Of a stretch of 64,000 nt of DNA, positions 4,221 to 63,867 are shown piece by piece. The DNA is from Thuidium tamariscinum (lineage: Eukaryota; Streptophyta; Bryopsida; Hypnales; Thuidiaceae): positions 7,608,501 to 7,672,500 of the forward strand of contig OX344750.2 in the NCBI GenBank assembly GCA_947034885.2, given 5' to 3'. The translations under genes and the position numbers were made by a program. Within the stretch, counting starts at the first letter, position 1. Each line of letters starts with the position of its first letter. Under the pieces are notes generated by a model. It was not told the DNA's origin and did no database searches. It saw only the letters and a list, made by a program, of their open reading frames with translations.

Positions 4221-4234
4221 AAAAGTGCATCTAA

Positions 4235-4261
4235 AAAAAATTAAAAAATTAAAAAAAATTA
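4235..4261 (+). mobile_element. A/T-only tail insertion with 14-bp flanking repeats
   Basis: 27 nt of AAAATT units lie between perfect copies of AAAAGTGCATCTAA (4221-4234, 4262-4275). It looks like a retroposed tail alone, although simple tandem duplication is possible. Confidence 0.5.
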
Positions 4262-4592
4262 AAAAGTGCATCTAAGCTTTTCCTAAGCTAAGGAAAAGTA
4301 CCGGCCTATAGCAGAAAAAAATGACGTTTATCATACAAATTTGCAATTCCATTATATCAATAAAATCCAAATTTGCAATTCTATTATTATTACGACTGAG
4401 TGATTATATAAATGATGAGAAATGGGAGAGGTGCCACCCAATTGGCTCATTGGCCCCCAAAAGTACAGGAGTTGGATGGAGTGGGTCCAGTTAATTTAAT
4501 GGTTCCGAAGTGGTTGTCAGCCGTCAATTTTAGTTTCCAATTGATTTCCTGGGTCCCCCCCAACCCACGGTGGCTCCTAATAATAAATAGGT

Positions 4593-4646
4593 ACGCAGTG
4601 GGGTCTCCCCATTTGTTCAAAAATTAAAAAGAAATTAAAAAAGTAG
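4593..4646 (+). mobile_element. tail-type mini-retroposon with 12-bp flanking repeats
   Basis: 54 nt between TAATAAATAGGT copies (4581-4592, 4647-4658). The insert reads CAGTGGGGTCTCCCC, then ATTTGTTCAAAAATT and an A-rich tail. The same head recurs at 4893. Confidence 0.6.
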
Positions 4647-4892
4647 TAATAAATAGGTGGCCATATCCTCAAAAAATCAAATTCCTTCATGACACGGGTT
4701 CCCAAAAAAAAACCATTTGCCACAGAGAGATTCTCCAATCTCCATCATGAAGCAAATGATAAGCTTGAAAGCGTCATCCAAGGCAGCTGGGGCACTTGGC
4801 AACTTTGGGCCCTAATTAGAATTATTAGGCACTTTACCTTACCTTACCCCCAGTTGACTTGGAGGAATCATGAACTAAAAAAATCTTCATTT

Positions 4893-4937
4893 CAGTGGGG
4901 TCTCCCCATTTGTTAAAAACAAATAAAAAATAAAAAT
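4893..4937 (+). mobile_element. tail-type mini-retroposon with 9-bp flanking repeats
   Basis: 45 nt between TCTTCATTT copies (4884-4892, 4938-4946). It begins CAGTGGGGTCTCCCCATTTG, as in the insert at 4593, and ends in AAAAAATAAAAAT. Confidence 0.6.
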
Positions 4938-5364
4938 TCTTCATTTTATTTTAGAGATAAAAAAAAGTGAATAAATAAATTTTAAAAATTATATCAGCAA
5001 GGGTCTACACAATGCGTTTACATATCTAAATTGAAATTCTTTTTTGGAAAAAATTAAGAAATAATAGCAAAGTTGTAGGGGGACAAGGTTTGGGCAAGAG
5101 AATAATTTCTAAAATCCGATCCAATTCTTTTGAGATTTTTTTGGTAATTTTTAAAGAAATTATAGGAAATTAAAAATTATATATATATATCAATCATTGA
5201 ATATCTATTTTTAGTACATGATGAACACTATATTTTGCCAAAAAAATATGACAAAGATAATATGTTTGTGTTTATGTGAATGATATCTAATTGAGAGATT
5301 TTGTATAAAACCAACCAATGGTTGAATAAATATTCTACTTCTACCTTGCCTACAAGTCTATCAA

Positions 5365-5596
5365 GGATGCTAGTATGTGAGCATAGAAGTGTGAGTCTAT
5401 AAGCTTTGAGCCTAAGTAAAAGTAAGTATCTTACACTTATTGAAGGTGTTTATAACATAAACACTTATAATATAAGTGTTTAGAACATAGATATACTATA
5501 ATCATTGAGGTGTCTATGATATAGACACCTATACTATAGGTATATAAAATTTTAGGCTCATAGGCTCACACTTTCTATACTCACATACTAGCAACC
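5365..5596 (+). mobile_element. MITE family B, uninterrupted copy
   Basis: A 232-bp element with ends GGATGCTAGTATGTGAGCAT and CTCACATACTAGCAACC. The interior is rich in GTGTTTATAACATAAACAC-like palindromes. No clear target-site duplication could be read. It serves as the reference copy for the nested case at 1559. Confidence 0.7.
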
Positions 5597-6519: not shown

Positions 6520-6756
6520 TGACATTGGAAAGATTATCAGTGTAAGATTTGTAGAATAGATCTAATGTTGCCCATTCTTCAAAATAAGGCAAAAGTTCAC
6601 CATCAATTGCTACAAACTTTATGATGCCTATTAAAAAAGATTTTCAAATTAAAATTTAAACTACCCTATAAGAAGATCTAAAATGTCATTTGAGGATTAT
6701 AATGAATTAATTTGTGCAAATTTACCCTTCAATTTTAGAAGAGATATTAAGATATA

Positions 6757-7995
6757 TCCCTAAATGTCCAAATTGCATTCTTTGACAACATAACAATTTT
6801 GGGAAGCTCACTACAAATGGAGTTTTTATTTATTTTTCTTTTATATCTTCACACAACATTTTTTTTAGAGGTGTATACGTAAGGCCCAACAATTTCATAA
6901 CTTTTGACTACATAGTTAAAAAAATTATTGTATGATTTGTAATTTTCATTAATCGATGAGCAACCCAAGCAACAAAAAAAGATTCTTTGAAAATATTTTT
7001 CTTAAGAAATAGAAGTTTGGAATTGTTTTATTTATTTATATCTAAGTGGAAAACTTTGAATCATTCTATTTTGATCAATGAATCAAAAGTTATGAGAAGT
7101 TTTAGGTTGGGGTAGTTTGTAGGTAGTTAGAGAATGTCTATACTACAAAAAGTTTGAAATCCTTTATTAAATTCAATTTTTAGTATTCTTAGAAAAAAAT
7201 AAACATAGGAGGTGTAGATTGTTTATTACAACATTTTAACCACTGAAATTTGAAAATTTTCAATTCAATAAATTAATTGTTTATAATTTAGTATTTTTAA
7301 TCATTTTCTACTTCTTCCTACTTCCTAATTTTTTCTTATATGTTGTACAATTCCAAATGATTTGAAATTTTTCAAGCATGTAGCCAACTTGACTTGACAA
7401 ATAAATTCAAAGAGTAGCCACCAATTTGAACTTTTTTTCATATAATGACAATGAACAACAAGCAATGAGTCCAAAATATGGATACTGATATTTGAATATT
7501 GCATACGAATATTTGAATATTGCATACGAATATTTGAATATCGAGTACAGATATGACATACACATATTAGATATGGATACAAGATATGGATGACATTCTC
7601 ATCATTCCATACTAATTGTATAGAACCCTCTCAAAATTATAAGAGGTGGTGCGGTGTATGTAAAATCAAATTTATTAAAAATTTTACTACAAAATAAAAT
7701 TTTAAAATTTTAGAGCTCATTGTGTGAAATTTTTTTTAATACAAATGTGACCTTCTAAAGTTTAGCTGCTTGATTTTTCATAGGGTCAAAAAAATGATTA
7801 TTGTCAATTCAAATGCTAACATCTTGCAATTTACATGGTGAAAATTTCTAATTTTTTTTCCACACAAGCATACTATAAGACCCTATGGTTGCATAGGTTA
7901 GAAAAGGTTTTTTTTAAAAATTTTGGTATTTGTAATAGAAATGACAATTTTAGAGCATTATTAGTGAAAACATAATCTAAACCATTATTTTAGGG
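6757..7995 (-). mobile_element. TTAA-type MITE family C copy, inverted and interrupted
   Basis: The minus-strand left end sits at a TTAA (7996-7999), with the family words GTTTTCACTAAT and CTAAAATTGTCATT next to it. The other end, at about 6757, reads CCCTAAATGTCC, but its TTAA has decayed to ATAT. The middle matches family C phrases such as TTCCTATATGTTGTACAATT read in reverse. A foreign segment of about 280 bp splits it between about 7446 and 7731. Confidence 0.65.
7446..7731. repeat. insert in the family C copy, with a 21-bp tandem repeat
   Basis: This segment is absent from the other family C copies at the same point. It contains three 21-bp units TTTGAATATTGCATACGAATA at 7491-7511, 7512-7532 and 7533-7553, the third degenerate. 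I cannot define ends or assign a family. Confidence 0.5.
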
Positions 7996-7999
7996 TTAA

Positions 8000-10094: not shown

Positions 10095-11012
10095 CCCCTA
10101 AAGGACCATGACTATGTTTTCATGAAAAATACTCCAAAACTGTCATTTTTAGGACAAGTACCAAATTTTTTTAGAAACATTTTTAGACACATAAAATTGC
10201 AAGATCTTGTATTAGGTTGGTTTGAAAAGTTATGGGAAAAATTCCAGAATTTCCACCATGTGAATTGAAAGATATTAGCATTTGAATTGACAAAAATCCT
10301 TTTTTTCACCTTGCAAAAAATTGGGCAGCTGTACTTCTGAAAGTCACATTTGCATGAAAAAATGTTCAAAAAGGTTGTAACTCTTTGGATTCATTTTTCA
10401 TGTCAAGTTCTCTACATGCTTGAAAAAATTCAGATCATTTGGAATTGCACAACATATAGGAAAAAAATAGTAAGTAGGAAGAGGTAGATAATGATTCAAA
10501 ATACTAAATTGTAAATAATTTAATTATGGAATTGAAAAATGCCAATCCCAACAGTTGTAATGATGTATTAAGCAATCTACATCCTATGATTTTATTTTTT
10601 TCCAAAATATTGAAATTTGAGTTCAATAAAGGATTTCAAAGTTTATTTTGGGGTAGAGATTCTATAACTACCCGCAAACTAAAACTCCTCATAACTTTTG
10701 ACTCATTGATTGAAATTGAATGATTCAAAGCTTTCCACGTACATATCAATGTAGAAAAACAATTTCAAATTTTAGTTTTTAAAAAAAGTTTTTTTTTAAT
10801 CCGCCCGAACTACCTTGTTATAAAAAAAAGTAACATATGAGGTCACAATTTTTTGCTCACATTTCCAAATTTCATGAAATTTTGGCACATGAAAGATATT
10901 CCTCTTCCACACATTCTCTTAAAATTTCAGCCTAAAATATGAAAAACTCCATTCACACGTACCTACCTCAAATTTCTATACTACCAAAACACGCAATCCG
11001 GTCCTTTAGGGG
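10095..11012 (+). mobile_element. TTAA-type MITE family C copy (piggyBac-like ends)
   Basis: A 918-bp element whose ends are CCCCTAAAGGACC and its exact complement GGTCCTTTAGGGG. The right flank is TTAA (11013-11016); the left is TCAA (10091-10094), one change from TTAA. It carries no transposase frame. TTAA targets and CCC-starting ends are typical of piggyBac and also of some Kolobok elements. Confidence 0.75.
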
Positions 11013-12094
11013 TTAAACAAGTTTAAAACTAGCCTTGGCATTGTTGACCTTAACAAACATTTACATGGAATCAACTTTTTCCTTATGAAGGTCTTCTTTT
11101 TAAATATAACAAACATGAAAAAGTCTTAATAGTGTTGTGTTACTAGAAGCAAGGATTGATTAGTCAAAGTGTAATTTTATTTTGCAAAAAATTTATTCCT
11201 TTCATTACATCTATTCCTATGAAAATACTATGCAATGGTATACAAGGCTTTGCAATTTTTCAATGTGATGATAATGAAATTTGTATAAAAATGAATAAGA
11301 TGGTAGAATGTACAGGGCCCACTATTCGCCCCAAAACTGATTTTTGACAACCATTAGAATTGTCATTGGATTAACCTCTGAAGGACCAAACATTCAAAAA
11401 TGACTATTATGAATAAATAAAACTTCATTTTAATCAAATAATTAGAACTTAACATTTTCAATTCATACAAAAATTTGTGTAAGACTTACAATTATTCAAT
11501 TGACAATAAAATTTAAAAAGAATTTTGAATTTTATTGAAAAATATTAGTCGATATAGCCATTGATGTCTATATCCATCATGGATGAGAATTTGTTTTTGT
11601 TTTCATTTTTGAGGAACTACCATAGTAGTGATACAAAATGTTATAGTGGTCCTCTAAATTGCAACATTCATCCACTTATTGGATGTATAGTATGGTTTTC
11701 ATCCACAATCAAGCAATTTTATCTAATATTTTTCAAATTTCAAAGTTGTTTGGCAATTTCATCAAAGTTTTTTGGCATTTTCTAGCCAAGTTTTTTTTTG
11801 TGCTATTTGGGACTAGAAAGCTAAAAAATAGACCTTGATGAGATGTGTGGATTGTAATTTACAACTTTTGTTTGAAACTTGCATTGAATTGTTATTCTAT
11901 AGTACATACCTACAATTTTAGAAGTTTTGACTACTCCATGATCTTCAAAGGGTTGAATATTAAGCAATCAAAACCTAAAATTGTTAAATAGGAAACTTTA
12001 AAAATAATGAAATATCAAAGAAAATTTTGTGTTAAAATTCCTTTTTAAAAGAAGAATCTGAATAACTATGTTGTGTTATTTTATTGAGGTTTAA

Positions 12095-14028: not shown

Positions 14029-14193
14029 TATTCTCAATGTCAATTGTATTGAAAATGGATACACTATTTTCAAATGGAGGTAGTATTCTCAATGTCAATT
14101 GTATTGAAAATGGATACACTATTTTCAAATGGAGGTAGTATTCTCAATGTCAATTGTATTGAAAATGGATACACTATTTTCAAATGGAGGTAG
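14029..14193 (+). repeat. three identical 55-bp tandem units
   Basis: The unit begins TATTCTCAATGTCAATTGTA and ends TTTTCAAATGGAGGTAG, repeated at 14029-14083, 14084-14138 and 14139-14193 without visible change. The upstream duplicate (near 13200) has only one related stretch, so the expansion is young. Confidence 0.9.
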
Positions 14194-14289
14194 TACAAGT
14201 TCTTTTGAACCTTTTTCATTTTGATTCAATGAATTTTAAAATTCAAAACAATCATCATCCCCCTTTGTGTGGTTGATGAACATTGAGAA

Positions 14290-15505: not shown

Positions 15506-15556
15506 GGATTAAGCTTAAGACAAACCCCAAGCCCAAATGCACCACTAACCTAAAAC

Positions 15557-15740: not shown

Positions 15741-17575
15741 TGGAAACTATGAACAGACTCAGCAAGATGTGGTGGTTCTGGGGGTGCCCACCTTACTTGC
15801 AACCAGTCGCTAGTTTCCAGAGATAAGTTAACCGGGAAACCCAAGGTGCATGTCGATATCCTTCATATTCTAAAACTATAAAACACTGGAACTGAAACTG
15901 ATGAAATGAAACGAGGGTTCAGGAAATGTTCCAGGAAAGCGCTGCTGTGCCCCAATTTCTCCCGCAGTCATAAATGCAGGGAATCTTACACCAACTTAAA
16001 AAAAGGAAGTGGCCCAGAAAGCAAGGCGAGGAATCGAATGAATGAAGTGCCTGGTCTGAAGAAACTTTTTCGGGTGGCCGACCGAACCACACGAATCTAG
16101 TTCCAAAAGTGCTCCCCCTGTTTTAGATGCCAACAATTGGACCCTTCGGAACTGCGGACCTCGGAAGATTCCCATCTGCAACGGCGCCCAGAATAGAGAA
16201 AAAAAATGCACCACTTGGCGTTCCGCAGCGACCAAAAGAGTCGGACCACCTTGGCACGTCACTATTCCCGGACACGTCCGCCATTCTCTGCGGAATCGAC
16301 GCCGCGGTCGAGCGTCCATGCTGCCGCTCACTGCCGCGCGCGAGACAGATTTCGTCCACAAAATATCGATCTACCTACACCCAGTAGGAGAACTAATAAC
16401 CGAGGATTTTATGCGACTCGGCAGCCAAATCTTGAAAGGAGAATTTCCAGAGAGCCGTTGACTCTGCGTAATACTCAAGTTGATACAGGTTGAAAAGTTG
16501 TGGGAAAAAACAATCACTAGAGATGTTCATAGTACTTGAGATTCTCATAAAATGAAGTGTGACTCTCATCCAATTTCCAAGCAACCGACTGAATGTTTCA
16601 CTCGATTTGAACTACATCCATTCAAACTTCCATTCAATTAGTGTGAGGGACCTGCACTGTTCAAACTCACACTAATTGGATTGACTTCAGTCGCATCCAA
16701 AATACCCAAAACATTATGCAGATCATTTCCAAAATTGGTTAGTCGCCGGAACCAAATTCTCGGAACCACCCATCGAAAAAACAGAAGTCAAAAAAAATTC
16801 TGCGAGAGAAAGCGCCACCTCACATCGGAAGCCGTGCACACAATATTCTCCGGCCATGTCGACTTCCATTCAATGTAGCGTGCATGGCCTGGGGATTGGA
16901 TCCACCCATTCTCGGCTTGACGCGGCATTCCTTCGCAAATCCCAAGTCTAGTGAAAGTCAAACTCCTCCGGTTGCGATCGATCATGCACAAACGATGAAT
17001 CCGTAACTCATGAATTTGTAACGTAGTTTTCGGCTCCACGTCGATCGATATTATTCCCATCTGCGGGATAATAGGTTTGAGTGATCGACATCTGAACAGT
17101 CCGTTTGATGTATCACACCTACTTACTGTACATATCGAATGATGAACTCGATCGCATAGGGCGAAAATCGAATGTGGTTTGGCCACCGGAAGCTACTCGG
17201 CCCGCCATTCGCAATTAATTATATTCGATTCGGGAATTGGAACAGGAATCTACGGTACTAAAGCTCGCTGCACGGTTCTCGATTGAGAAGATCGACTTCT
17301 TCTAGATCTTCCGCTCGCTCTGTCAGGAATCTTCATGAAGTCGAAACTTGTGTGGAGTCTCGGTAATGATCAATTCCTAGCTAGGCACTCTACAGAGTTA
17401 CAACTACAGCTAGCTCGGTCCCATGTCTCTTGGCTTCCCAATGGACCGCGCGTAAATGAAATTTTTTGTTACTTCAGTTTGTGTTGTGTTCACTGAACTT
17501 TGCTTGCTGACCCCTCCAGCCCGTTCGCAGCTAAGGTTTGTTGTATTTTCTTGCAATGAAATCTCTTTACATTTG

Positions 17576-17603
17576 TCCATGTTCAAGAAAAAAAACAAAA
17601 AAG
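17576..17603 (+). mobile_element. tail-type mini-retroposon, 13-bp flanking repeats
   Basis: 28 nt (TCCATGTTCAAG plus an A-rich tail) between CTCTTTACATTTG copies (17563-17575, 17604-17616). Upstream bases 17531-17562 also match the body of the longer insert at 56578 (TTGCAATGAAAT), so an alternative reading is an older, longer copy with a partly duplicated end. Confidence 0.5.
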
Positions 17604-18448
17604 CTCTTTACATTTGAGTTTAAAAAATAAAATAAAATAAGTGTTTTTTGGTGCCAGGGATTCGTACTGTTTGGTAATTTTATTATTGTTTATTTGGAAA
17701 TCCAGAGTCATTACTTGATAGCTATGATACCCCTGAAAACAAGGGAAAGCAAATTCACCAGTTAATATTGAACAACAATTCTGCAGCTGCTTGCTTAGAA
17801 TATTTGCTTAATGCGTCAATTTCTTTCAACTGGCGATACTTCATTAGTTTGGTGCAGTTCCAGCCACGCAGCCTGAAGCCCAAATCTATACCCGACCTAC
17901 GTTGTGGCTTGAATTTAGACATTAATGAAGATTTTTTATTTTTTTTATTTAAACACGGACAATTTCCATACATTTGTGAAGATTTAAGTCACAAGACTTG
18001 TGGAATATCGCCATTTCAACGAATTTGACGTTTCTACTGAGTTACGTTAGTCTGCACCCCAAAAAACTAGAAAAGAATTCTTCGTCAATTAAGAATTAGT
18101 ACACCTAGCTCCCGTGTCTGTTCATCCACTAGCTAGATGATTAATTAACTTACCGTCCGTCACACTCTTTGAAGTTCCCGCTAGCGCGATATTATTGATG
18201 ATCAGATGCTCATGTTGCCGATTCCCGTAGCTAGGTTCTGTGTCGCTCGATGTCTGTTTCGGAACGGAACCAGTCCACCAGCGCGCGCGGCATCCCGAAT
18301 CAGTCCACACCACCATTGCGCGCATGCAGTCCGTCGGCCCGAACTTGCGTGTCGCTAGATATTCGATTGCCGAACGTCGTGACCCAACGAGGAGGGCAAT
18401 ATATTATATAATACAGAATTGGAAAAGAATTCAATTCGAACCTGCGAT

Positions 18449-18495
18449 TTTGTCTCCGAAAAACAAAAGCAAGAAAACAAAAACAAAACAAAAAA
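18449..18495 (+). mobile_element. tail-type mini-retroposon, 17-bp flanking repeats
   Basis: 47 nt (TTTGTCTCCG, then an A-rich run with scattered C) between perfect CAATTCGAACCTGCGAT copies (18432-18448, 18496-18512). The long exact flanks are hard to explain except as a target duplication. Confidence 0.65.
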
Positions 18496-18960
18496 CAATT
18501 CGAACCTGCGATCGATGCATGCGCACATGAGAAACATAATAAGTAAGACAATCATATCGATATTTGTAGCAAGTTTCTGCAAGACAGTCAGAGAGGCTAG
18601 CTATTCTAGCTAGCTAGCTTAACTCAGCCCGTGATGGAGGTGGTGGCAGAGCTTGTCTCTGGCGCGGCCCTGTTTGCCTGGACTCACTTGCTGCCTGGAG
18701 GCACAACATAAAGTTCAGTCCCTCGAATCTGCCAGTTTAATTAAGCACAACACTGACGACGGGATCGTCGATCGGAGCTAGACGCCGTGAATGGAGCACG
18801 ATTCCCTAATCGACGAGCTCGAAAAGGGGCAACTGGGCAAGCTATGTTGGAGTTATTGCCTCCACCAAGCACCCGGCCGGGGCTCTGCTGTTTGATAGAA
18901 CGCATGACCTGGAGTGGCGGTTATGGAGGGGAGGGCCTGTTCAATGGCCTCGGCTTCTAG

Positions 18961-19821: not shown

Positions 19822-20746
19822 CCCCTAAAGTTCTATGACTATGTATTCACCAAAAACGCTCGAAAACTGCCATTTCTAGTACAACTACCAATTTTCTTGA
19901 AAAAAACAATTTTTGACACATGTAACCGTAGGATCTTGTAGTATAATGTCTAAAAAAAATGTGGTAAAAATTTCAGAAAATTCCACCATGTGGATCAAAA
20001 GATATAAGCATTCAAATTCACCAAAACCATTTTTTCAATCTTGCAAAAAACCGGGCAGCTGCACTTCACAAGCTCACTTCTCAAGGAAAAAATGTTGAAA
20101 ATGGTGGTGCCTCTTTGAATTCAGTTTCCTAAACAAGATGGAGATATGCTCAAAAAATTTCATATCATTTGGAATTGTACAACATATAGGAAAAAAATAG
20201 TAAGTAAAAAGAAGTAGAGAATGATTCATAATACTAAATTGTTGAGAATTTAATTATAGAATAAAAAAAATGACAATCCCAATGGTTGTAATGTTGTAAT
20301 AATCAATCTACATCCTAGGGTTTTATTTTTTTACAAAAATATTGAAAATTGAGTGAAATAAACGACTTCAAAGTTTCTTTAATGGTGGAGAATCCATTAC
20401 TGCCCGCAAACAAAAAAACCTCATAACTTTTGACTCTTTGATTGAAATGGAATGATTCAAAGCTTTCCACTTATATATAAATGTAGAAAACCAGTTAAAA
20501 AAAGTGATTTTTGAAAAAAGTGATTTTTTCTAATCTGCCCGAACTGCCCAGTTACGAAAAAAAGCAACATATTAAGCCATAACTTTTGACTCATATCTCC
20601 AAATGTCATGAAATTTGGTACACATGAAGATATTCCTCGCCCCCACCTTCTATTAAAATTTCAGTCCAAAATATTCAAATTTCCAATCACACGTACCTGC
20701 CCAAAATTTCTATACGGCCAAAAAACGCATGTTGGTCCTTTAGGGG
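19822..20746 (+). mobile_element. TTAA-type MITE family C copy
   Basis: 925 bp with intact TTAA on both sides (19818-19821, 20747-20750). Ends are CCCCTAAAGTTCTATGAC and GTTGGTCCTTTAGGGG. The interior runs parallel to the copy at 10095, including the AACATATAGGAAAAAAATAG block. It marks the right border of the GC-richer island. Confidence 0.8.
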
Positions 20747-20750
20747 TTAA

Positions 20751-22802
20751 AGAGCATACTATGGCATGATTTAAAACTAGTAGGTGGATTAGTGGCTTGG
20801 AGTGTAGACAATGCCATTTTAGTCCATCCATCCAACTTGTAATAGCACCCCTATAGTTGTTACTTTGTTGAGGATTTGGGGCATTAAGAACTCAAGTTAA
20901 TTTAGGAGCAAAGAATTCAATGTTTATGGAGTGTGTTACTTTGTATGGAGAGGCACGTTTATGCATGTTGGTAAAGCTAGCCATGTGTGGCTCAAAGTAG
21001 CTATCTCATGTGATTTTAATAAGACCAAGGCCTTGATAGATAGTTAGCTCTCAGTTGGCTTTTGTGACAAATTCAAATAGAAACTTGCTCCCAAGACTCT
21101 CATCTCCATCACATTGCCCTCCCTATCCAAACTTTGGGGCGAGATCAGCTTGTGATTTTTTTCTTCTTTGCTTGATGGAAGCTAATTGTCAGTAAAGAAA
21201 GAAAAAGTCATTAAGCTATATTAGGATTTAGGAAGAATGATGTATGAATAGTTGTATATCTAGATGAGAATTTAATTGATGACATTGTGAGACAATTTGT
21301 ATTTTGTTCAAGAGATGAATGAATTTTTTTTATTATTTGGTGTTGTAAGCCTTGAAATTCGAGGCACTAAAATGATCATTTTTGTAGTTTGCCATTTATT
21401 CCTGTTGTTGCAAACCAATAAATTTTAGCATGCATGCTTGCAATGAACCAAGAAATATTATATGAGTGCATGTTCAAGTTTGGATGCACTTTTTTATACA
21501 CTTATTAGGTGTTTTAGTCTCAAAATTCAAATTCAAATCAATTTAATGTAATTTATTCACTATAAGCCTAATTTCATTTATCTAAAAGTAGTTTCTTATG
21601 AAAATCCAATATGTCCAGTTTTAATTGAAAGTTCTTTGGACCAACCAAATGGATTACATTGACAATGAACTAATCAACACTAAGGTAGACGAGCCTAATT
21701 CCGTCTCCAACCCATCTTTGTCACCCTATAGTCACGCCCATTTTTACCTATTCCACCATCCAAATTTGCTTAGAAATCTAACAAAATCAATGCTTTAATA
21801 CCATTTAGGGTAATGTGTCAATAGGTGATTGGTGAAACCTTAAATGCTAATAGGTATATAAGCAATTGGTTATGGGTTGTTGTTATTAGGGCATTTGTAA
21901 CCCTAGTTATTGGTGATTTTGTAATTTAGGATTGAATACTTCAAAAATTCATAGAAATTATAATTTTGATTGGAAAATTATAGTTCCACTTAGACTTGAT
22001 TTATGAAACATGCCCACACCTTTGAAAAATATGTGCCCCTCTTGGAATTGACTCCAAAATAGTCAAATTGCAAATCAGGGTAGTCATAGGCTTATCTACC
22101 TTAATGCTTTAGGTATTTTCAAACATTGGAGAAATTTTGAACCTTCAAAGAGGCCTCTAAAATGGCCTCAATTAGGATCCTTAATTGGATTTAAATGCGT
22201 ACTTGTCAAATAAAGGACAATTTTTCTCCCTATTTCCACCCATTTTGACATCATGATGTTTATAAAGGTACATTAGGTACTTCTTGTCATTCAAATTTTA
22301 AGTACATTGAGGGATTATTTTATTTGGAGAAGGACAAATTTGGTGCAATTAAGTACTAATGGCTCATGTGTTATTAGTACAATGAGTGAGACTTCTTTTT
22401 TATAAGATCATTGGTACTTCATGCTCATGATGTTTGCACTCTAAAATGCCTCTTATTGGACAATAGAACAATAGGTACTTTTTGTCATTCAAGTCCTTGG
22501 TACTATAAGTGAATTTTTTACATTGAAAAATTCAAAAGTACTTGATGAGATTCACACAAGGTAGTGACACATGTTGTGTACTTAGGCTACCAATTCTAGC
22601 CTTCAATAATTAGCTTTGCATGTCAATTCTTAAGGGCCTCTTTGAAGGTTTAAAATTTCTCCAATGTAATTTTGATTGCTACTTCTATCCAATATCAAAA
22701 CTATAACCATATTGAAAATATTCCAAGTAGTCAATCTCCCCTCAATCTCCTAAATCAATTAGTTCAAGTGCCTTGTCAAGCTCCTATTATAGTATTAGTA
22801 CG
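20751..22802. other. AT-rich intergenic DNA, nothing assigned
   Basis: Single-copy-looking sequence within this window. GGCCTCTTTGAAGGTT-like words occur once in each orientation (about 22140 and 22650), hinting at a decayed foldback. No gene seen. Confidence 0.35.
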
Positions 22803-23061: not shown

Positions 23062-23261
23062 CTAATTTTCACAAATGAGTCCCATTTGTCTCTGAGAATT
23101 TTTTTTCTATATCTTTTTTTTGGTTCCGTTTCAGCCAATGGCTCAACCCGTCCCCTTGAATTTTCAGAGTAGGTTAGCTATGCACCACGTGGGGTCCTCC
23201 TAGTGGCCCATTATAACTTGTTGTGTACCGGTTTGAAATGAATTTTACTGTAGGGTTACTT

Positions 23262-23312
23262 TTTATTTGTTTTTGACACAAATGAATGGCATTTCATTGC
23301 AAAAATAATTTA
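23262..23312 (-). mobile_element. inverted tail-family segment
   Basis: Minus strand reads TTTGCAATGAAATGCCATTC, then ATTTGTGTCAAAAAC and an A-rich tail, matching the insert at 56578. No clear flanking repeat. Confidence 0.5.
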
Positions 23313-44426: not shown

Positions 44427-45372
44427 CCCCTAAACCCCTAACCTCTATGTTTTCACCAAAACCGCTTCAAAACTGTCATTTCTTAGACAATTATCAATTT
44501 TTTTTTTAAAAACATTTTTTGACAAAATTAACCGTAGGATCTTTTAGAGAACAAGTTTAAGAATATGTGGAAAAAATTTCAGAAATTTCCGTCGTGTAGA
44601 TTGCAAGATATTAGTGTTTGAAGTGACAAGAATCAGTTTTTTACCACTGCGGAAATCCGGGCAGCTGCACTTCAGAAGACTATATTTGTGTGGAAAAATA
44701 TCCAAAATGATTGTTACTCCTTGGATTCATTTTTCAAGTGAATTTGGCTACATGCTTGAAAATTTTCAGATCATTTGGAATTGTGAAACATATAGGAAAA
44801 AAATAGTAAGTAGAAAGAAGTAGAAAATGAGCCAAAATACTAAATTATTAACAATTTATTTATAAAGTTAAAATAAGACAATCCCAATGGTTGTAATGTT
44901 GTGTTAAACAATATACACCCAATGTTTTTATTTTTTTTCAAAAATATTGAAAATTGAACTAAATAAAGAATTTCAAACTTTTTTTTGTAGTGTAGAGATT
45001 TTATAACTAGCCGAAACTACCTCAAACTAAAAAACCTCATAACTTTTAACTCATTAATCCAAATGGAATGATTCAAAGATTCCCATTCCTGTATAAACCT
45101 AAAGAATCAATTTGAAATTTCACTTTTGAAAAAAAAGTTTTTTTAAAGAAGTTTTTTCAGCTGCCCAGGCTGCCCTCACTTCAAACAAAATGACATATCA
45201 TGCCATAACTTTTTACTGTGTAGTCAAAAGTTACAAAAATTGTTGGGCCTTGAAGCTACTCCTTGGACACATGTTGTATCAAATTTTCAAAGAAAAAAAG
45301 TATAAACTCTATTCGTAGTGAGCTGCCCAAAATTTCTATGTTGCCAAAAAACGCAGCTCAGGGCTTTAGGGG
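44427..45372 (+). mobile_element. TTAA-type MITE family C copy
   Basis: 946 bp with TTAA at 44423-44426 and 45373-45376. The left end has a small local duplication (CCCCTAAACCCCTAACC); the right end is GGGCTTTAGGGG. The interior aligns with the other C copies throughout. Confidence 0.8.
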
Positions 45373-45376
45373 TTAA

Positions 45377-46239
45377 CACCCTTCATTCAATTTCTTTTTT
45401 GAAAATAATTTTTTTTCTTCCGCAAGGAATAATATGCCTTATGATGAAAACTTCTTAAAATGTTTTCTAAAGAAATGAAACTCATCCATGTCCCTGCCCC
45501 TTTAGCTTTTACCATACAAAATGAGGGCGGGTTCATTCGGGCTCACGTGTTGGATTCCCACAAACAAATGTAAGCTTGTGTAGTTACAAAGGAGGGCAGG
45601 GAACAACCCTATGGACCTCCGCTTCTTTAAATTAAAAATTTAAAAAAAAAAAAAAAAAAGACTTGTTACCACACCAGGGAACTTGACTGAAATTCTTGCC
45701 TGCCCAAGGTGAAAAATGATTGTGTCTACTGGATCATGTGTTGGCAAGATTTGCAGTACAAACTTACAGGCCAGGCAATGAATTTACAGTTTGCTTCTGC
45801 ACTTGAATGCACTCCCTGATTAACTTACCTTATGTTATGGCTGCATTGGAAGCAGTGATCCCAAAACTGGCTAAATTTCGCTCATTTTCTACTCAATTTT
45901 TTTCATGCCCTTTGTATACATTTTAAAAAATCTTCCAAAAATGAACATTTGACTAAAATTCCTGAATTTGTTTTGAGATCACTGATTGGAAGTAAGTTCG
46001 ACTGGATGGGGAAAAGTACATTACATGGATGACCATAGAGAGCCTCTAATGGAGCTTCAGTTAACTTAAGTTCATCAATTGACTGCTGACGGGTGGAAGG
46101 GGAGGAGGTTCATAAAGTGCCCATTTAGGAGCTGGAATTGAATTTGGGAAGAATGTTTTCTCAGTAAGTTTTTCACTTTACTTTGGAAAACAACTGGAAA
46201 TTGGCATCATTCGAAGGGAAGAGGTCCCTAAACCAACCA
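45377..46239. other. intergenic DNA with a long A run
   Basis: A 17-A run lies near 45643-45659. No gene or bounded element. Confidence 0.35.
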
Positions 46240-48850: not shown

Positions 48851-49996
48851 GTTGAAACTCTATATAAGACATCTTCTTTATATATAAAATTATGAGGATG
48901 AATAGTTGTATTTTGTCCTATAGATAAGGATTCTTTGTCATCCATTGACTATAAAATGTCCATGGCATTGTTTATGAATTAAATCATCTCTATCATTACC
49001 TTCTTGATTATCCCTTTGAAGGTTGTTTCTCATCTAAAATATTTGATCCACTAAAGATGCACCAATGGGATTTAAAATAGAAGGCAAGTTGCATTTTCTT
49101 TTTTTCAACGATACGATGTAAGTTAAGAGCCAAAGGCAAGTTGCATTTGATCTCAATGATGACAACATTGCTTAATTAAGAGAACTAATGATGTGCCCAT
49201 TTTGCACTTAGACAATGTACAACCTACTCAAAATCTACTCAACATCTAGCATAGTTGGGAGATGCTATGCAACTATGGCAAAATAACAAACCACCAAGAG
49301 TACCATGTTATGAGAGGATTTCATTACACCTACGCTACTTATGGCTTATAAAAACTTGTTTGAGCACAAAGATGTACAGATCTTCTTAGTTGTTGATCCT
49401 AAATCAAAAAGATTGAACCCTTCAAATTAATCACCTTGGTACATCTAACTTAGAAAAAAAAAACAATGAAGATAATCTTCATCAATATTTCAAGACTTGA
49501 TTATAAATCTTGAAAACTAAAACTACTAAATTGATATTAGAAACACAATTAAAGACTAGCATTTTACTTTTTGACCTCACTGACATTTATTATTCTTTAA
49601 CGATTTTTTTATTCTATTGAAAGCAATAATTTATAAAATTTATAATGATGAGTTTTGTGGCATATTGTAATTGAACAAAATATTTGCCACACTTTACATA
49701 ATTAGTATTTTTGAAAACATGAATTCATCTCATTCTTTACAAAATCATAAGAAAGAAGTTTTCATTCAATAATAAATTTTTGGGGGTGAATTTAGGATGA
49801 TTGAGCTTCAAATTTGTTGTTTGCAATTTTTTGTTTTCACTAGTGGCAATGCCTTAGAAGTAATAGGAAAAAATAACAAAAGGTCAACTTTACATACCAT
49901 ATAAAAGACATGCAACCTCCTCTCTATTGCTAAAGAATAAGACTTTAAACTAAGAGCTACGATGATTCAAATTTTTGGTTCACATTATTTTCCTAT
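48851..49996. other. AT-rich intergenic DNA with a family D fragment
   Basis: About 48890-48975 resembles the right interior of family D (GAATAGTTGTATTTTGTCC). The remainder is unassigned. Confidence 0.35.
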
Positions 49997-49999
49997 GAA

Positions 50000-50163: not shown

Positions 50164-50166
50164 GAA

Positions 50167-55667: not shown

Positions 55668-55925
55668 GATGAAATCTGAGGGCATTATAGGGCCGTTTCG
55701 GGTCTATTTCTGAAACGGCTCCCAATGGCGATGGATGCCGTCATGTCGATTTTTATCAAAAAAATAAAAAATAAAAAATAAAAAATTTGGGTCCTGAAAT
55801 ATGAAAATAAATCCAAAAAAAATTGAATTTTTTTTATTACATGGCAGGGGCGTGATCACGTAGGATTCAAGTTCATAGGGCAAAAACTGCGTTCCCGCAG
55901 TCTCCTAATGCCCTCAAATTTCATT
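55668..55925. mobile_element. MITE family H copy 3
   Basis: Left end GATGAAATCTGAGGGCATTA after TTA, right end TAATGCCCTCAAATTTCAT before TTAA. A run of AAAAAATAAA units sits in the middle. Interior words match the copy at 53247. Confidence 0.7.
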
Positions 55926-56004
55926 TAATGGTTCTGTGTACTTTTTTCCTTTGAAATGGAATTTGTCCATGTGTTTAAAAAATAAATTAAAAAACCCACT
56001 CCTC

Positions 56005-56045
56005 GTTGAATTGTACATGTGTTTCAAAAATAAAATTAAAAAATT
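56005..56045 (+). mobile_element. tail-type mini-retroposon, imperfect 9-bp flanks
   Basis: GAATTGTACATGTGTTTC plus an A-rich tail lies between CCACTCCTC (55996-56004) and CCATTCCTC (56046-56054). A sister segment GGAATTTGTCCATGTG with its own tail is just upstream at about 55958-55994. Confidence 0.5.
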
Positions 56046-56347
56046 CCATTCCTCCCCAAATCAATAACCTAATCCATGCAATACATTAAATTTTCTGTTT
56101 TTTCCAAATGAGTCCAACTGAATAGATAGAAAGAAATCTAACTAGCATCAAAGTAATAATAAAATTTGGGGTGAAAAGAATCAATTAAAGGCAGAGAATG
56201 TTTATGGGAATTACTTAATAACCAGAATCAAATGCAATCCAACTAATTTGTTACAGAGTAATAATAGAACTGAAGTGAAAAGGAATCAATTAAACTCTCA
56301 AGGAATGTATGGGGAATGGTTTTGGCCTGCGGTTCTGTGTACCTTTT

Positions 56348-56388
56348 ATTTTTTATTTTTTTAAACACATGGGCAATTCCCATTAATG
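56348..56388 (-). mobile_element. tail-type mini-retroposon, inverted, imperfect 15-bp flanks
   Basis: Minus strand: GGGAATTGCCCATGTGTTTA and an A-rich tail, between TTCTGTGTACCTTTT (56333-56347) and TTTTGTGTACTTTTT (56389-56403), 13 of 15 matching. A forward copy, GAATTTGTCCATGTGTTC with tail, follows at about 56415-56464. Confidence 0.5.
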
Positions 56389-56577
56389 TTTTGTGTACTT
56401 TTTCCTTTGCAATAGAATTTGTCCATGTGTTCAAAAAAAATTAAAAATTAAAAATTAAAAAAAGGATGGGGAATGTCGCAAAAAATCAAGTATAATAAAA
56501 TTGAAGTAAAAACATATGCTCACAATCAAAGTGAATAGTCTGTGGTACCTTTGCATTGGAAATGAGAATGTTCTTCT

Positions 56578-56661
56578 CTCCGCCAGGCCACTTGTGGCTG
56601 GCGGCTTTGTTCTCCTTCTTTGCAATGAAATCCTGTTTCATTTGTGCCAAAAAGAAAAAAA
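56578..56661 (+). mobile_element. mini-retroposon with 19-bp perfect target duplication
   Basis: 84 nt between GAAATGAGAATGTTCTTCT copies (56559-56577, 56662-56680). The insert contains TTTGCAATGAAATCCTG, CATTTGTGCC and an A-rich tail. It is the longest flanked member and the best guide to the source sequence. Confidence 0.75.
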
Positions 56662-56879
56662 GAAATGAGAATGTTCTTCTTGTCATCCCAATAAATCCAA
56701 AATATTCAAACTCAAAATCCATGTAATATGTGAAAAAGAAATTTCAGCCCAGTCCAATTTTTTTTTTTAAATTGTTAATGAAAAAGCAGTAATGTATCAG
56801 AAGTGTAAAAGAGTTAATGTATGGGGATTGCCAAAAAATGGGTACACCCTGCCCAACACCATCGTCACAACCATGTGTA

Positions 56880-58744: not shown

Positions 58745-59653
58745 ATCCCCAAGTGAAGGAATGGAAGTGAATTCAGTGCAGGGCAGGGTAACTTAATGAG
58801 ACGGTGACAGAGGGAGGAATCTAGGCTCCGTGACCCCGCCCGACCAAATTCTGGGACTCCAGGGACGCAGTCCGCAAACGACGTCCGTCCCAGGGGACGC
58901 CCTGACGGAGACGACGTCCACTGGCAGGGCCGGTCGTCAGAAAACTTCGCGTCCGGCATTTAACGGTCTTTGAGGGAACCTCACATTCTCCACTTTCGTT
59001 GCGAACCTTCGGTTCTATCTCGACCTTTCTCGCTGCGATCGCTGCTTCTACGTAACTTAAGTAGGCCACACACTTCAGCAGAAGTTTGCACTTCAGACAG
59101 TCGTCAAACCATTGCGAAGCTTGAGAAGAAGCTGAAGAAGCCGAAGCCGAAGCTTGGGAACAATCTGAAGCACTAAGATACCAGCAGGTGATTCACGGCT
59201 CTGCTTTGCTGCTTCCACTCCATTGATGCTGAAAGTGAAAGTAGCAAGGAGCTTCTTCTGTCTGTTACCCTCGCACGTGGGGTGCACACATTGCACTTTG
59301 GGGAGGGAGCTTGGATGACACTCGGGGTGTTTTTACTGCAGTAATCGAAGCTTGCGAGCAAGTCTTTGACTCTCGTGCTGTGTGTGGTTTTGCTTCCCGA
59401 GTTTAGATTGGAGGAGTGTGGGTTTACGGTGCGCGATTGTACGAGTGGCTGGTTTGTGTTGTGAGTTTGTGATACGGGGTTAGATTTGGGTTCATGGCTG
59501 AGCTTTAGTTGTGAAAGGTTTGGAAGTGCGCGATCATGTGACTACTGTTTTTTTGCATGCATGTGATTGCACAGTGTCTGGCTACCTGGGCACGTAATTA
59601 GCTCGCCCGATAGAGGTGGAGATAGAGACGCTGTCTGTTTTGATTCGTCGTCG
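58745..59653 (+). promoter_or_regulatory. GC-rich promoter and 5' leader region of the ERF gene
   Basis: Composition changes sharply at about 58.74 kb from AT-rich repeats to CpG-rich DNA. Two GACGTC palindromes lie at 58880-58885 and 58913-58918 with a TGACG at 58903-58907, a cluster of the ACGT/TGACG type bound by plant bZIP factors. No convincing TATA box was found, so the start site is not fixed. A CAGCAG|GTGATT donor-like site near 59187 and an acceptor-like TTTAG near 59405 would allow an intron in the leader, but this is not established. Open frames here begin with non-ATG codons or lack coding character and were not called. Confidence 0.45.
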
Positions 59654-59680
59654 ATGGTGGTTCTCCCCATGGCGTTGTGA
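59654..59680 (+). promoter_or_regulatory. short upstream ORF before the ERF start codon
   Basis: An ATG at 59654 opens a nine-codon frame (MVVLPMAL, then TGA at 59678-59680) that ends 41 nt before the main ATG. It contains two ATGs, at 59654 and 59669. If the leader is transcribed as drawn, ribosomes would meet this uORF first, so it may damp translation of the main frame. This is seen in the sequence; the effect is inferred. Confidence 0.45.
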
Positions 59681-59721
59681 GAATTCGTGAGTTCGGTGGA
59701 AATTGGGAGAGACTGAGATCG

Positions 59722-61708
59722 ATGGGGGCTCGCGCCTTGGAGCGGAAGGGGGGTTCCAAGAAGGGAACGAAGAACAAGCCGCAAGAGGGGAAGTACCGCG
59801 GAGTGCGCCGACGGCCTTGGGGCCGGTACGCGGCTGAGATCCGTGACCCGCACACGCGCGAGCGGCGATGGCTGGGGACGTTCGACACCGCGGAGCAAGC
59901 GGCCGTGGCGTATGACCTCGCGGCGCGCTCCATGCGCGGCTTGAAAGCGCGCACCAACTTCGTCTACCCCACGCACCAGACGTGCTTGCTGTCCGCCGCG
60001 CTGGCTGCTTCGCGAGCCACCACCACTGGCGAAGGCTTCTTCGGCAATAGCAGTTCCAAACTTGGAACCAAAGCACTGCCCGCGCTTGGACACACCAATT
60101 TAGACTGGAACACGGCATTGGGGTCGTCCTCGCTCAATGACCGCAATAGCAGCGCGGCGGCGTTCTTGCTGGGGCCGCTAGGGGGGGACTCCTTCATGAT
60201 GGACCCATCCAGTGAGCCCTACAGACACATGTACGAGTCCGTGGAGCGCCTGGCGAGTGCTATCAGCGACCCACGACCCTTGAAATCGAACACTCGTGAC
60301 GCGGAAGACGCCGTCGTGCCCATGAGTTATCCCAGAGCCAACAACAAGCTCACGAACGGGAAAAGAGATGGCGCCGTGGTGAAAAGAGAGCCGTGGGTCC
60401 TGCAAAAAACTGGGCGAATTGTGTCCGCACACGATCCACAACATGGTTGCGTTACCGTCGCAATTGCATCTCCTCAGGTGCTTAACCCAACTTGTTTCCC
60501 GAACCCTCATAGCGTCAAAATATTTTCGTCACTTTCTCCACGTTTTAAACATCATTCACGTAATATCACGCAAAGCATCCTTGAATAGTGATGAGTCTTT
60601 TTGTCAATCTTGGCCATGCTTTCAGCTTTCCACCAATGTTGCTAATCTCCTCGTTATGATTTTGAAATAACATCAATTCTAGAGTACCGTCCGCACTTCC
60701 CACACCGCCATTTGCTTGTATCCCAATGTCACAGTTTCGAGGCTAGTGAGTGTTCTGCTAATGCTCCCTTACAAGATTTCATTGCGATTTTGCCAGGTGA
60801 CGGGCTTGGGTGACAACAAAGTAACCGTATCGAACGAGTCCACATTAACGAACGCGCGTCCCTCTTCCCGAGCATCGAAATTTCTTGATGAAGAGGCTGG
60901 AACGCTTTCCCAGGTGGTCTTGAAATATATCACCATTGACAATGAAATACTGCGCGCAGTGCCCTCGAATTCCTTCGACAACGAGGACCCGCCCGTCGAC
61001 CCCAGTCCGTGTTTCCTCTCAACCCAAGTCCCTTACTCCGAAGACTCCTCCACCTCCTCCGTTTCGCCCTTGGGCGACACCGCCACCTCCCCAGACTCCC
61101 CAACGTTGGTCCAGCAGCTCCCAGTCGCAATCCCCGAGGCCAACCAATTGCAGAACCCTGACAATTTACAGAGCATTCTTCCACTGAGCATCTGCTCCAG
61201 TGCACCACGTGAATGGCCAACAGTTTACGACGTTTTCCCGTCTCGTGAGAGCTCCTGGAACGGAGCAACATGCGGGGCTCCTTCCGAGAGCTGGAGCACG
61301 TTGTGTGAGCTTCCAGCTGCGTGGCAATACTACACTGATCCTGGTATGGTGGCGAATGAGATGGAGCACGAGCTGGTGGACGTGAAGCGCGAGCTTGCAC
61401 TGCGAAGTTATGGGGACAAAGAAGCAGCGTCTTCATGTGCCTGGCTGACGTTTCAGGACGAGGGGTGTGATGCGTGCTTTTCCAGTGACCACTGGCGGTT
61501 CCCTGATTCTGCTGGTGCACGAACAGAGAATTCTGCCGTCTCTTGTTTGTCTGATCTCGGGGACGACTACTTGTGCAACGACGCACAACAGCAGCAGCAG
61601 CAGCAGCAGCAGCCCAGTTGCAACGATTACGGGGAGGAGACTCGGCTGTTTCCTGTCTACATTGTGGAGGAGCCGCTAGGCTGTTGCTATGAGATTCCCG
61701 GCCTGTGA
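59722..61708 (+). CDS. AP2/ERF transcription factor, ERF group VIII-b-like (two exons)
   Basis: Coding sequence is join(59722..60477, 60797..61708), 555 codons plus TGA. The AP2 domain spans about residues 24-83: [19 protein letters not shown], then WLG at 50-52, [14 protein letters not shown] and a KARTNFVYP end. The AAEIRD motif marks an ERF rather than a DREB (VSEIRE) type, and the whole domain reads like PUCHI, LEP, ESR/DRN and FZP, which act in organ initiation and meristem fate. The lysine-rich stretch before the domain (residues 8-24) is a likely nuclear signal. The rest is low-complexity and Ser/Pro/acidic, with nine glutamines at about 516-524 and a hydrophobic-acidic C-terminus, plausibly an activation region. 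At 555 residues it is much longer than typical angiosperm relatives of roughly 250-400. I chose the ATG at 59722 because the open frame upstream (from 59677) has no earlier ATG. The domain is sure; the exon joint is inferred from splice consensus and frame. Kinship with moss STEMIN and liverwort LAXR is inference. Confidence 0.9.
60478..60796 (+). other. phase-0 intron of the ERF gene
   Basis: The donor reads CAG|GTGCTT and the acceptor TTTTGCCAG|GTGACG. Both exons are open on either side in the same phase (0), and a CTAAT branch-point-like motif lies at 60758-60762, about 35 nt before the acceptor. The 319-bp segment is visibly more AT-rich than either exon. Without splicing the frame runs on to a stop at 60586-60588, which would give a 288-residue protein that keeps the AP2 domain but loses the long C-terminal half. 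A second acceptor-like CTTTCCCAG ending at 60913 is in the same phase and would remove 39 more residues. Confidence 0.75.
61586..61612 (+). repeat. CAA(CAG)8 run encoding nine glutamines
   Basis: A CAA followed by eight CAG codons lies inside exon 2 of the ERF gene. The nearly pure CAG run is prone to slippage, so the glutamine count may vary between individuals. Polyglutamine tracts are common in plant transcription-factor activation regions. Confidence 0.9.
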
Positions 61709-62580
61709 TCTCGATGCAATCATCGCTCTTATAGTCATGAAATTGGTTAACTGCTCTTTGGCGGATCTAGTGTACACATGAGTTTAGGAAGAGCGACCCA
61801 AGCTAGAGAGCTGTTGTGATCTTATCAAGGTGTAGATACATTATGTAATTAAGGTGAGATTCCGTGCTAGTCTCTTCGCACATGTAAACAGTCGTAGGCA
61901 ACGATTTCAAACTGTTGAATGTTCTCTTAACTGTGAATGCAGAAGCTTGCAGCTTCTGCATGTTGGACAATTATGTAGGCTTTGTTGTAGTGAACTACCT
62001 CGTTCATCCGACTCTTTCGTGATTACAGAACAATGTGCCGTGGATTCATCAGTGAACGAGGTACTTGACGCAATGGTGCAAGACTTCCTCCTGTTGCGTC
62101 AAACACCGTTAACGCAGCGTGTAAATTTTCTCATGCAGTTGACTGTTTAATGTTTACTTTGCACTTCAGCTTTCCTTTCTTCAGTTGTATTGACACGGCA
62201 ATGTGGCTCTCATGTCAACTGCGGCACTTGTTCCTCGTACCTCCTGGTTTTTTGTTTTCTAAACTGTTTCATTCGTTTGTTGTGCGCTGTCGTAAGTGCT
62301 CAAGTCTCTGGATTCACCTTCTCCAACAGTTACAGCATTCTAGAGTGCTTCATGTACCCAGACTACTGCACCATGTCCTCAATCCTCAGCAAATCCTCAA
62401 TGCTGATACGGGTAGCAAGCACCCACTTCTTCTAAAAACCTTTACTGATTGCATAAGTTTCCAGCAACGAGAGTCAACCCTACAATTGAAGCGGAGTAGG
62501 CCAACCTAAAACAAGGTGATGTCACCGCCGCGAACATGAGGTCGGATTGCTATCATTTAAAGGCCGTTTTTTAGGACATG
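61709..62580 (+). other. 3' untranslated / downstream region with three short hairpins
   Basis: This CpG-containing DNA follows the ERF stop codon. Three inverted repeats stand out: 11-bp arms at 61937-61947 and 61951-61961 with a 3-nt loop; 11-bp arms TACCTCGTTCA at 61996-62006 and 62053-62063; and 9-bp arms TTGACGCAA at 62065-62073 and 62094-62102. Open frames of 98 and 119 codons overlap the region but resemble no family I know. An AATTAA-like polyadenylation context sits near 61848-61853. The transcript end is unknown. Confidence 0.4.
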
Positions 62581-63430
62581 AGCAGGTGAGTGTTTAATGT
62601 CTGGCGCTTTTTTCTTCCATCCGAAACCAGCTGATCCGACTGTTGCCTTTTCTTTTCCATGAAAACTGGAAGCCGAAATGTGGAAACTGAGGAGCGAAAT
62701 CGGGGAAAAAGGCCGAAAACACACGGTGGGACCAAAGTGGAATAAGTTGGTTGGCAGATGACTGCCAACAGAACTGAAGCGCCGTCCTAGCAATAGACAT
62801 TTAGGTGGCAATGGCATTCCAGTAGGGAATAGGGAGAGAATTCATAAAAAGGGTCGAAGATGCGGTGATCCTTTGATTCTTTGGTATTAATAAAGACTGA
62901 GGAGGGTTGTTTGCAGCAGCACAGCAGTACTTACTACTTAAGTTACTACTTAGTAGTAGCCCTGCCAGATTCTCATTCCAGGCGTGCTGATTACCACTCT
63001 GCTGTGTATAATTGCGCGGAGGAGGAGGAGTCATCAATATCAACAGGAAGGAAGGAGCAGATAATGAGATTATGGTACTTAAAAACATTAATCCCTTAAA
63101 GTTACCTGCCTCCACATTTTCATCTCTTCCAACTTAAATTATTATCCTGAGTTCCTGACCCACATACAAGATCTTAAGATGCAGACAAGTGTCTGCCTGA
63201 GGTTCCAGGGAAGGAGTAAATTAATTAGCTTTAAGCAGATGAAGAATGTGGATTGGACGAGGAGGATGGAGCCGTGTGCCACTTGCCTTTGGGAAAAAAA
63301 ATCTCACTGCCTGCATTTGGAGTAAGATTGAAGTTTAAGTTAAGTTAAGTTACGCAGCCTTCACTTGTGTCAAAAAAAAGATGAAAAGAGTTACCTTATA
63401 CGGAGTAAAATACTTGCAGCCTCTGCCTGT
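62581..63430. other. downstream intergenic DNA, no gene recognised
   Basis: Mixed-composition DNA containing an AATAAA at 62888-62893, a TTAAG micro-repeat near 63338-63352, and an A-tailed CACTTGTGTC segment at about 63369-63387 that matches the tail family described at 63547. I see no supported coding frame. Confidence 0.35.
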
Positions 63431-63450
63431 TAAGAAATTTCCAAGTCCAT

Positions 63451-63481
63451 GAATTGTCCATGTGTTTAAAAAAAATAAAAA
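63451..63481 (+). mobile_element. tail-type mini-retroposon, 12-bp flanking repeats
   Basis: 31 nt (GAATTGTCCATGTGTTT plus A-rich tail) between TTCCAAGTCCAT copies (63439-63450, 63482-63493). Confidence 0.65.
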
Positions 63482-63546
63482 TTCCAAGTCCATTGCAAAA
63501 ACTTCCAGTGAGTTCAGTTCCTTTTTTTTCACAAATGGGGATACCT

Positions 63547-63577
63547 CATTTGTGTCAAAAACACCAAAAAACAACAC
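63547..63577 (+). mobile_element. tail-type mini-retroposon, 15-bp flanking repeats
   Basis: 31 nt (CATTTGTGTCAAAAACACC then A/C-rich) between CAAATGGGGATACCT copies (63532-63546, 63578-63592). It lies less than 70 bp from the insert at 63451. Confidence 0.65.
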
Positions 63578-63867
63578 CAAATGGGGATACCTTACTGCCA
63601 CTTTTGTTTAGGGTCAACTAATGTTTCCATTTATGAGATGGAGGCCATACTGTCCATGCAACTTATGATAAAACCAATAATTGATGAATGTTGGACTAAA
63701 CTTGAGGAATTGAGGTACAAAGTGGTTACGATTTAACTCCTTGGTTCATCCCCAAGTTGCAAGTTGGTATGCTCTTGATATTTGGTTGATGGAAGGTTGT
63801 CATGTTCGCAAATTTGGGTGTACTAGGATGAGAATGGGACATTTTGGGTTTCATATTGTGGCTAAGG

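Follow-up and report, generated by a model that had tools for sequence, protein, structure and literature searches.

The 64-kb stretch of the Thuidium tamariscinum genome analyzed here (the window: contig OX344750.2, positions 7,608,501 to 7,672,500, or G000:C2:7608501-7672500 in our numbering, within a 363-Mb assembly of 19 contigs) carries a series of very short A-tailed inserts, each placed between direct repeats and spanning 24 to 84 nt. These inserts are very probably 5'-truncated copies of several plant L1-type long interspersed nuclear element (LINE) families, namely, two that we call A and B and probably a third, C, which arose through ordinary target-primed reverse transcription. The initial annotation had described ten such inserts as retroposons reduced to their 3' tails, with one source resembling a short interspersed nuclear element (SINE). 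The retroposon origin is borne out by the analysis, and the single SINE-like source is not.

The flanking repeats carry much of this reading. For 136 A-rich tracts on both strands of the window, the best surrounding direct repeat was scored, and as a control, the upstream flank of each tract was paired with the downstream flank of another. Nine tracts reached a score of at least 18 against 0.91 expected from permuted flanks, and six reached at least 22 against 0.20. The tract at 56309-56475, with 147 nt between its repeats, belongs to the nine but is not taken as an ultrashort insert. Flanking repeats at chance level had been named in advance as the outcome that would speak against retroposition, and the permuted control is instead far exceeded. 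Nine of the ten inserts listed initially are supported by their flank scores, 56348 more weakly than the rest, while the insert at 56005 scores 13.3, which is at chance level. Of the eight repeats described there as perfect, those at 4235, 4593, 18449, 56578, and 63547 are so, whereas those at 17576, 63451, and 4893 are perfect in their cores only.

The same excess is seen in a larger set of 312 kb, made up of the window and 77 of the loci L002 to L083, which is not a random sample because the added loci are centered on LINE or reverse transcriptase matches (L009, L040, L052, and L053, which are duplicates, and also L051 were left out of the scoring). At a score of at least 20, this set holds 13 inserts of 20 to 60 nt and 8 of 60 to 100 nt, with 0.0 expected for either class, and 10 of 100 to 200 nt, with 0.24 expected. 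When sites are defined by a CATTTGT- or CATGTGT-like word followed by an A-tail, a repeat with a score of at least 16 lies no more than 75 nt upstream in 27 of 97 cases (one locus being counted twice), against 1.5 expected, and in 18 of 97 when the tail is excluded from the repeat (1.4 expected).

Further marks of target-primed reverse transcription accompany the repeats. Their median length is 13 nt, with 25 of 27 sites (again with one locus counted twice) within 11 to 17 nt, in agreement with the 13 to 15 bp given for target-site duplications of the L1 clade in PMC4245944. The duplicated stretch opens with at least three As in 32 of 42 events against a background of 4%, an enrichment that is inflated because these As partly helped to locate the repeats. 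To find empty sites, the joined flanks of 14 inserts were compared with the genome, and matches were kept that cross the junction and whose length lies within 5 nt of that of the query; this gave 15 rows of paralogous empty sites for the L087 insert and 2 for the L002 insert. Taken together, repeats far above the permuted control, their length, the A-run targets, and the two paralogous empty sites uphold the mechanism originally proposed. Slippage is rejected as the origin of the tracts on the basis of the flank-repeat controls and the paralogous empty sites. The tails resemble slippage tracts lying between direct repeats by accident in that they are irregular, rich in A, and show periods like TAAA; given the controls on repeat score, the LINE words that precede the tails, and the empty sites, we consider such an accident extremely improbable. 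At the 5' joins, mean microhomology is 0.72 nt against 0.45 nt in permuted pairs (P = 0.04, 29 events), a weak excess that does not decide between aborted synthesis and run-off at the end of a template.

Two loci outside the window show more complex arrangements of such inserts. In L045, on the minus strand at about 1277 to 1340, two A-tailed CATTTGTTT units are flanked by an unusually long direct repeat of 28 to 34 nt, as if the site had been hit twice or a retroinsert had been tandemly duplicated. In L018, at about 1455 to 1650, two adjacent A-tailed inserts in opposite orientation have three copies of ATATTTGAAGATTC around them, as if a single site had been used twice.

The sources of the inserts can be recognized from their relatives. 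With the body of the insert at 56578, 40 scored matches (itself included) were obtained among 542 candidates, and with the 4593 region 15, itself included; at the matching loci, the short inserts can be seen to be the ends of longer elements. At least three 3'-end families are present: A, ending in GCAGTGGGGTCTCCCCATTTGTTC or GCAATGGTTCTTTCCATTTGTTC; B, ending in TGCAATGAAATTCCGTTTCATTTGTGCC; and C, ending in CAATGGAAATTGTCCATGTGTTTC. Whether these ends belong to LINEs was judged from neighboring zf-RVT domains of ORF2, all counts of which derive from a genome search with 150 scored of 305 candidates. On the same strand, zf-RVT lies upstream of family A ends by 520 to 584 bp and of family B ends by 670 to 681 bp. 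For family A, 3 of the 100 places in one listing and 6 of the 25 in another show this (the domain of one of these six lies at 1917 bp, and one element is common to both listings), as do 3 of the 40 places listed for family B. The 12 rows come from 11 distinct elements; zf-RVT lies at 520 to 681 bp in ten of them and at 1917 bp in the eleventh, and no zf-RVT was found on the wrong strand or the wrong side of the listed A or B ends. Frames in L028 and L048 give Pfam matches to zf-RVT. In the genome, CATTTGTTCAAAAA has 476 occurrences and its reversed form 11, TTGTCCATGTGTTNAAAA has 95 and its reversed form 0, and the exact word TTTGTCCATGTGTTCAAAAA occurs once.

A single SINE-like source had been suggested from TTTGCAATGAAAT segments shared by 17531, 23262, and the insert at 56578. 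All three are family B LINE ends. At least three families, two of them leading into LINE ORF2, and copies of many lengths contradict one SINE-like source, which is rejected for families A and B on account of the ORF2 upstream of their longer copies. The related proposal of a tiny SINE-like family with a short gene of its own finds its best ground in family C, for which no LINE open reading frame (ORF) lies nearby in 135 listed places and whose verified inserts are short. It is nevertheless very unlikely, as families A and B lead into ORF2 and there are several families and many lengths with no fixed 5' end. No tRNA gene was found in the window with ARAGORN, nor was a SINE-type RNA polymerase III 5' part met with for A and B, where LINE sequence lies upstream of the longer copies. 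Recurrent starts of the matches were at one point read as shared 5' ends; this was dropped because fast-diverging upstream sequence accounts for them equally well.

The lengths of the bodies, that is, of the LINE sequence before the tail, extend well below those expected of truncated elements. To sample the genome beyond the window, 100 of the 476 CATTTGTTCAAAAA sites were listed and 70 were fetched by position (55 on C1 and 15 on C2). By eye, 29 of the 70 were read as LINE ends and 41 as other sequence, including repeat families with one tail each. Among the 29, eight have bodies of 8 to 28 nt (L088 and L147, with weak repeats, being among them), seven have bodies of 50 to 123 nt, two have bodies of 166 and 294 nt, and 12 have no acceptable repeat. 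The statement that almost every copy ends no more than a few dozen bases from the tail hence fits the window, whereas in the outside sample only 8 of 29 LINE ends have bodies of up to 30 nt. The density of motif-bearing inserts is 7 in these 64 kb against 4 to 5 outside the query matches in about 275 kb of other loci, a figure made uncertain by the choice of the window for its many inserts.

The repeat families with one tail each were counted as single events. In one group (L094, L103, L105, L108, L112, L115, L140, and L141), a LINE-like tail sits inside another repeat that has spread in copies 95 to 99.8% similar. In a second repeat family (L089, L092, L098, L117, L132, L136, L139, L144, and L151), CATTTGTTCAAAAAG occurs at one site in nine similar copies, which are 95 to 98% similar to L089.

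Combining events that were not selected by length from the window, the CATTTGTTCAAAAA sample, and the flanks of other loci (one, in L018, adjoins the element that brought the locus in) gives 31 body lengths: 0 nt (1 event), 8 to 20 nt (10), 21 to 30 nt (12), 31 to 49 nt (0), 50 to 130 nt (6), and longer (2). For the four middle classes, a single exponential expects 12.0, 5.6, 5.8, and 4.4. A smooth decay of this kind would be left if host repair factors seized the target break quickly, with the hairpin described below playing no part. This account stays a rival because end-joining factors in chicken cells favor truncation of zebrafish LINE copies (PMC2666801), and the sample of 28 events is small. 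The exponential misses the 21- to 30-nt class (12 against 5.6) and the 31- to 49-nt class (0 against 5.8), in bins chosen afterwards, and we regard host-driven decay as a doubtful explanation.

The position of the 5' ends becomes more informative when the terminal hairpin common to the families is considered. Directly before CATTTGT or CATGTGT, 59 of 94 ends can form a 5-pair stem (one G-U pair being allowed) with a loop of 3 to 11 nt; swapping arms between ends yields 9.6, and shuffling the upstream sequence yields 1.5. Five duplicate loci are absent from the 94 ends, as are 26 loci that belong to repeat groups or are paired duplicates; when every repeat group is retained, the count is 63 of 115 against 10.5, and in all these counts related copies enter many times. 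The main stems are ATGAA/TTCAT, GTGGG/CCCAT, ATGGG/CCCAT, ATGGA/TCCAT, and ATGGA/TCCGT; they vary among families and subfamilies and yet stay paired through compensatory changes. In addition, a second inverted repeat of larger size (CCGCCAGGCCAC / GTGGCTGGCGG) precedes the terminal hairpin in the insert at 56578-56661 and in the family B loci, and the changes between copies look paired.

By manual count, the 5' base of the terminal hairpin lies about 21 to 24 nt from the tail, and bodies of 21 to 30 nt therefore start at or just outside the hairpin and those of 8 to 20 nt within it. Accordingly, 10 of 28 5' ends fall inside or 3' of the hairpin and 12 of 28 at or outside its 5' base. The hairpin may itself be the cause of the early stops, a reading to which we give somewhat less than an even chance. 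More tentatively, the hairpin that marks L1 RNA for reverse transcription might also be a decision point, so that a large share of copies end within or just past it and form a separate class of 20 to 30 nt that repeat annotation misses. In the reading that we favor overall, a LINE endonuclease would nick the T-rich strand and the LINE RNA would be primed at its A-tail; synthesis would often halt within 8 to 30 nt, during or just after the copying of its own 3' hairpin, and host end-joining would seal the stub, mostly directly and with little microhomology.

It could alternatively be speculated that the template was already short, as the initial annotation had allowed in naming a tiny source RNA beside aborted reverse transcription. 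The LINE RNA might be degraded from its 5' end, with the last 20 to 30 nt and the A-tail shielded by LINE protein bound to the hairpin, and the stub might then be copied to its end. This would suit the 12 of 28 ends at 21 to 30 nt, which lie at the 5' base of the hairpin or a few nucleotides beyond it, the position expected for the end of a protected fragment, and also the bodies of 19 to 37 nt, for which microhomology is near chance as expected for run-off (mean 0.5 nt over 14 events; 0.45 nt for permuted pairs over all). Against it, 10 of 28 ends are located within the hairpin or 3' of it, and the longer truncations, which are of several lengths, need ordinary abortion anyway. We therefore consider a trimmed template unlikely and aborted reverse transcription better supported; a tiny or trimmed RNA is not needed, although it may fit the ends at the hairpin base.

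Several observations weigh against the reading of the inserts as LINE copies shortened at a terminal hairpin. The insert at 4235 consists of an A-tail alone. No paralogous empty site was found for 12 of the 14 inserts searched, whose flanks match themselves only, and in 14 of the 15 L087 rows the match ends just 14 to 16 nt past the junction, while in the remaining one it extends 34 nt. For family C, zf-RVT lies within 2.5 kb in 0 of 40 and 0 of 95 listed places, and a zf-RVT domain by itself does not establish the L1 clade. The length bins were set after the data had been seen, L097 (62 nt) and L133 (123 nt) were omitted from the table, the length-selected loci include one 37-nt insert (L045), four of the tabulated events have weak repeats (L051, L048, L088, and L147), and the table includes the 27-nt body of 49097, which belongs to no known family. 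Finally, a simple block is insufficient, because the enzyme reaches the 3' base of the hairpin first and yet 12 of the 22 ultrashort bodies begin at the 5' base or beyond it.

The individual inserts illustrate this range of ends. On the plus strand, the A-tail without a recognizable LINE body (4221..4275, insert 4235-4261) has 14-nt perfect repeats and a score of 26.0. Two family A tails follow: 4581..4658 (insert 4593-4646; 12-nt perfect repeats, score 21.0), with a 26-nt body that begins about 5 nt 5' of the terminal hairpin and has related ends in the genome, and 4879..4946 (insert 4893-4932), with a 22-nt body and repeats TCTTCATTT after As (score 18.6). At 17513..17640, the sequence reads as an older, degenerate family B 3' end with its own tail, 71 to 78% similar to seven family B loci over 62 to 93 nt; nested within it is an ultrashort insert (17559..17616, insert 17576-17599; repeats CTCTTTACATTTG, score 25.2). 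The insert at 18432..18512 (insert 18449-18495) has a body of about 10 nt between 17-nt perfect repeats (score 34.4), and the family B tail at 56559..56680 (insert 56578-56661), with a body of 73 nt, has 19-nt perfect repeats (score 35.8). Two plus-strand inserts close the series: a family C tail at 63435..63493 (insert 63451-63477, score 24.5) with a 17-nt body that starts inside the hairpin and a LINE tail at 63532..63592 (insert 63547-63577; 15-nt perfect repeats, score 30.3) with a 10-nt body from the 3' arm, the latter detected only under a laxer tail definition.

Two inserts, both on the minus strand, are additions to the initial list. The clean one (49081..49148, insert 49097-49132) is a short A-tailed insert of no known family with 16-nt perfect repeats and a score of 31.0. 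The weaker one (17919..17985, insert near 17935-17976) is a family C tail whose 23-nt body starts at the hairpin base; its repeats are imperfect, with a score of 16.2 (9-nt repeat, 17926-17985), or 18.1 when 16 nt with two mismatches are allowed. Also on the minus strand is the family C tail at 56336..56403 (insert 56348-56391), with a body of 25 nt from the hairpin base and a score of 16.3 in the test of 136 tracts or 19.0 with two mismatches allowed. It is overlapped on the plus strand by a family C 3' end and tail at 56375..56447; another such end with its tail lies at 55917..55993 (plus strand). The family C-like tail at 55996..56054 (plus strand) has repeats that are not above chance (score 13.3). 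A longer copy of a family B 3' end at 23220..23300 (minus strand) retains the hairpin, and a near direct repeat looked for around it was not found.

Other features of the window include an open frame at 59644-60585 with an AP2 domain (Pfam E value 4.5e-13), which we take to encode an ERF-type transcription factor; this frame and the zf-RVT-bearing LINEs would agree with a land-plant origin of the sequence. A 55-nt unit is present in three tandem copies with 100% matches at 14029-14195. A repeat of about 1 kb occurs in both orientations in diverged pieces, about 60 to 85% identical, at 10112-11017, 19839-20751, and 44445-45377, and inverted at 6990-7857.

When these results are set beside known systems, the kind of event, a truncated LINE copy made by a known copying mechanism, is already known and is confirmed here. 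The inserts resemble 5'-truncated L1-clade copies of plants and mammals in their A-tail, L1-length duplications, A-run targets, and LINE 3' sequence. They differ in that their bodies of 8 to 30 nt lie below the 100 to 1000 bp given for truncated LINE members in PMC3747384 and in that their ends crowd at the terminal hairpin. Extreme shortness and the link to this hairpin look unusual, and no description of plant insertions of such length was found in titles and abstract openings of the open-access literature, which is not proof of absence. With SINEs that share a LINE 3' end, the inserts have in common their shortness, A-tail, and LINE-like end, but neither a 5' part with a promoter nor a constant length was found here.

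Another parallel is a monocot L1 lineage of the stringent type (in ME1), for which PMC3747384 describes a 3' hairpin that has a UCU loop and shows compensatory changes, taken by Ohshima as a sign of stringent template recognition. A near-tail hairpin with compensatory stem changes is shared, and young family A would likewise have a UCU loop if the stem is drawn as TGGGG/CCCCA. The 3' flank here is CATTTGT or CATGTGT and not CGAG as in that description, and the likeness is one of the hairpin. By this analogy, the hairpin is likely to be of the stringent-recognition kind.

If the pattern is general, LINEs would leave many insertions that are too short for repeat maskers and would form a hidden source of small insertions and deletions, each such event amounting to a small A-rich insert together with a target-site duplication. 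Because each 5' end marks the point at which reverse transcription halted, counting such ends in a genome could test what the 3' hairpin does.

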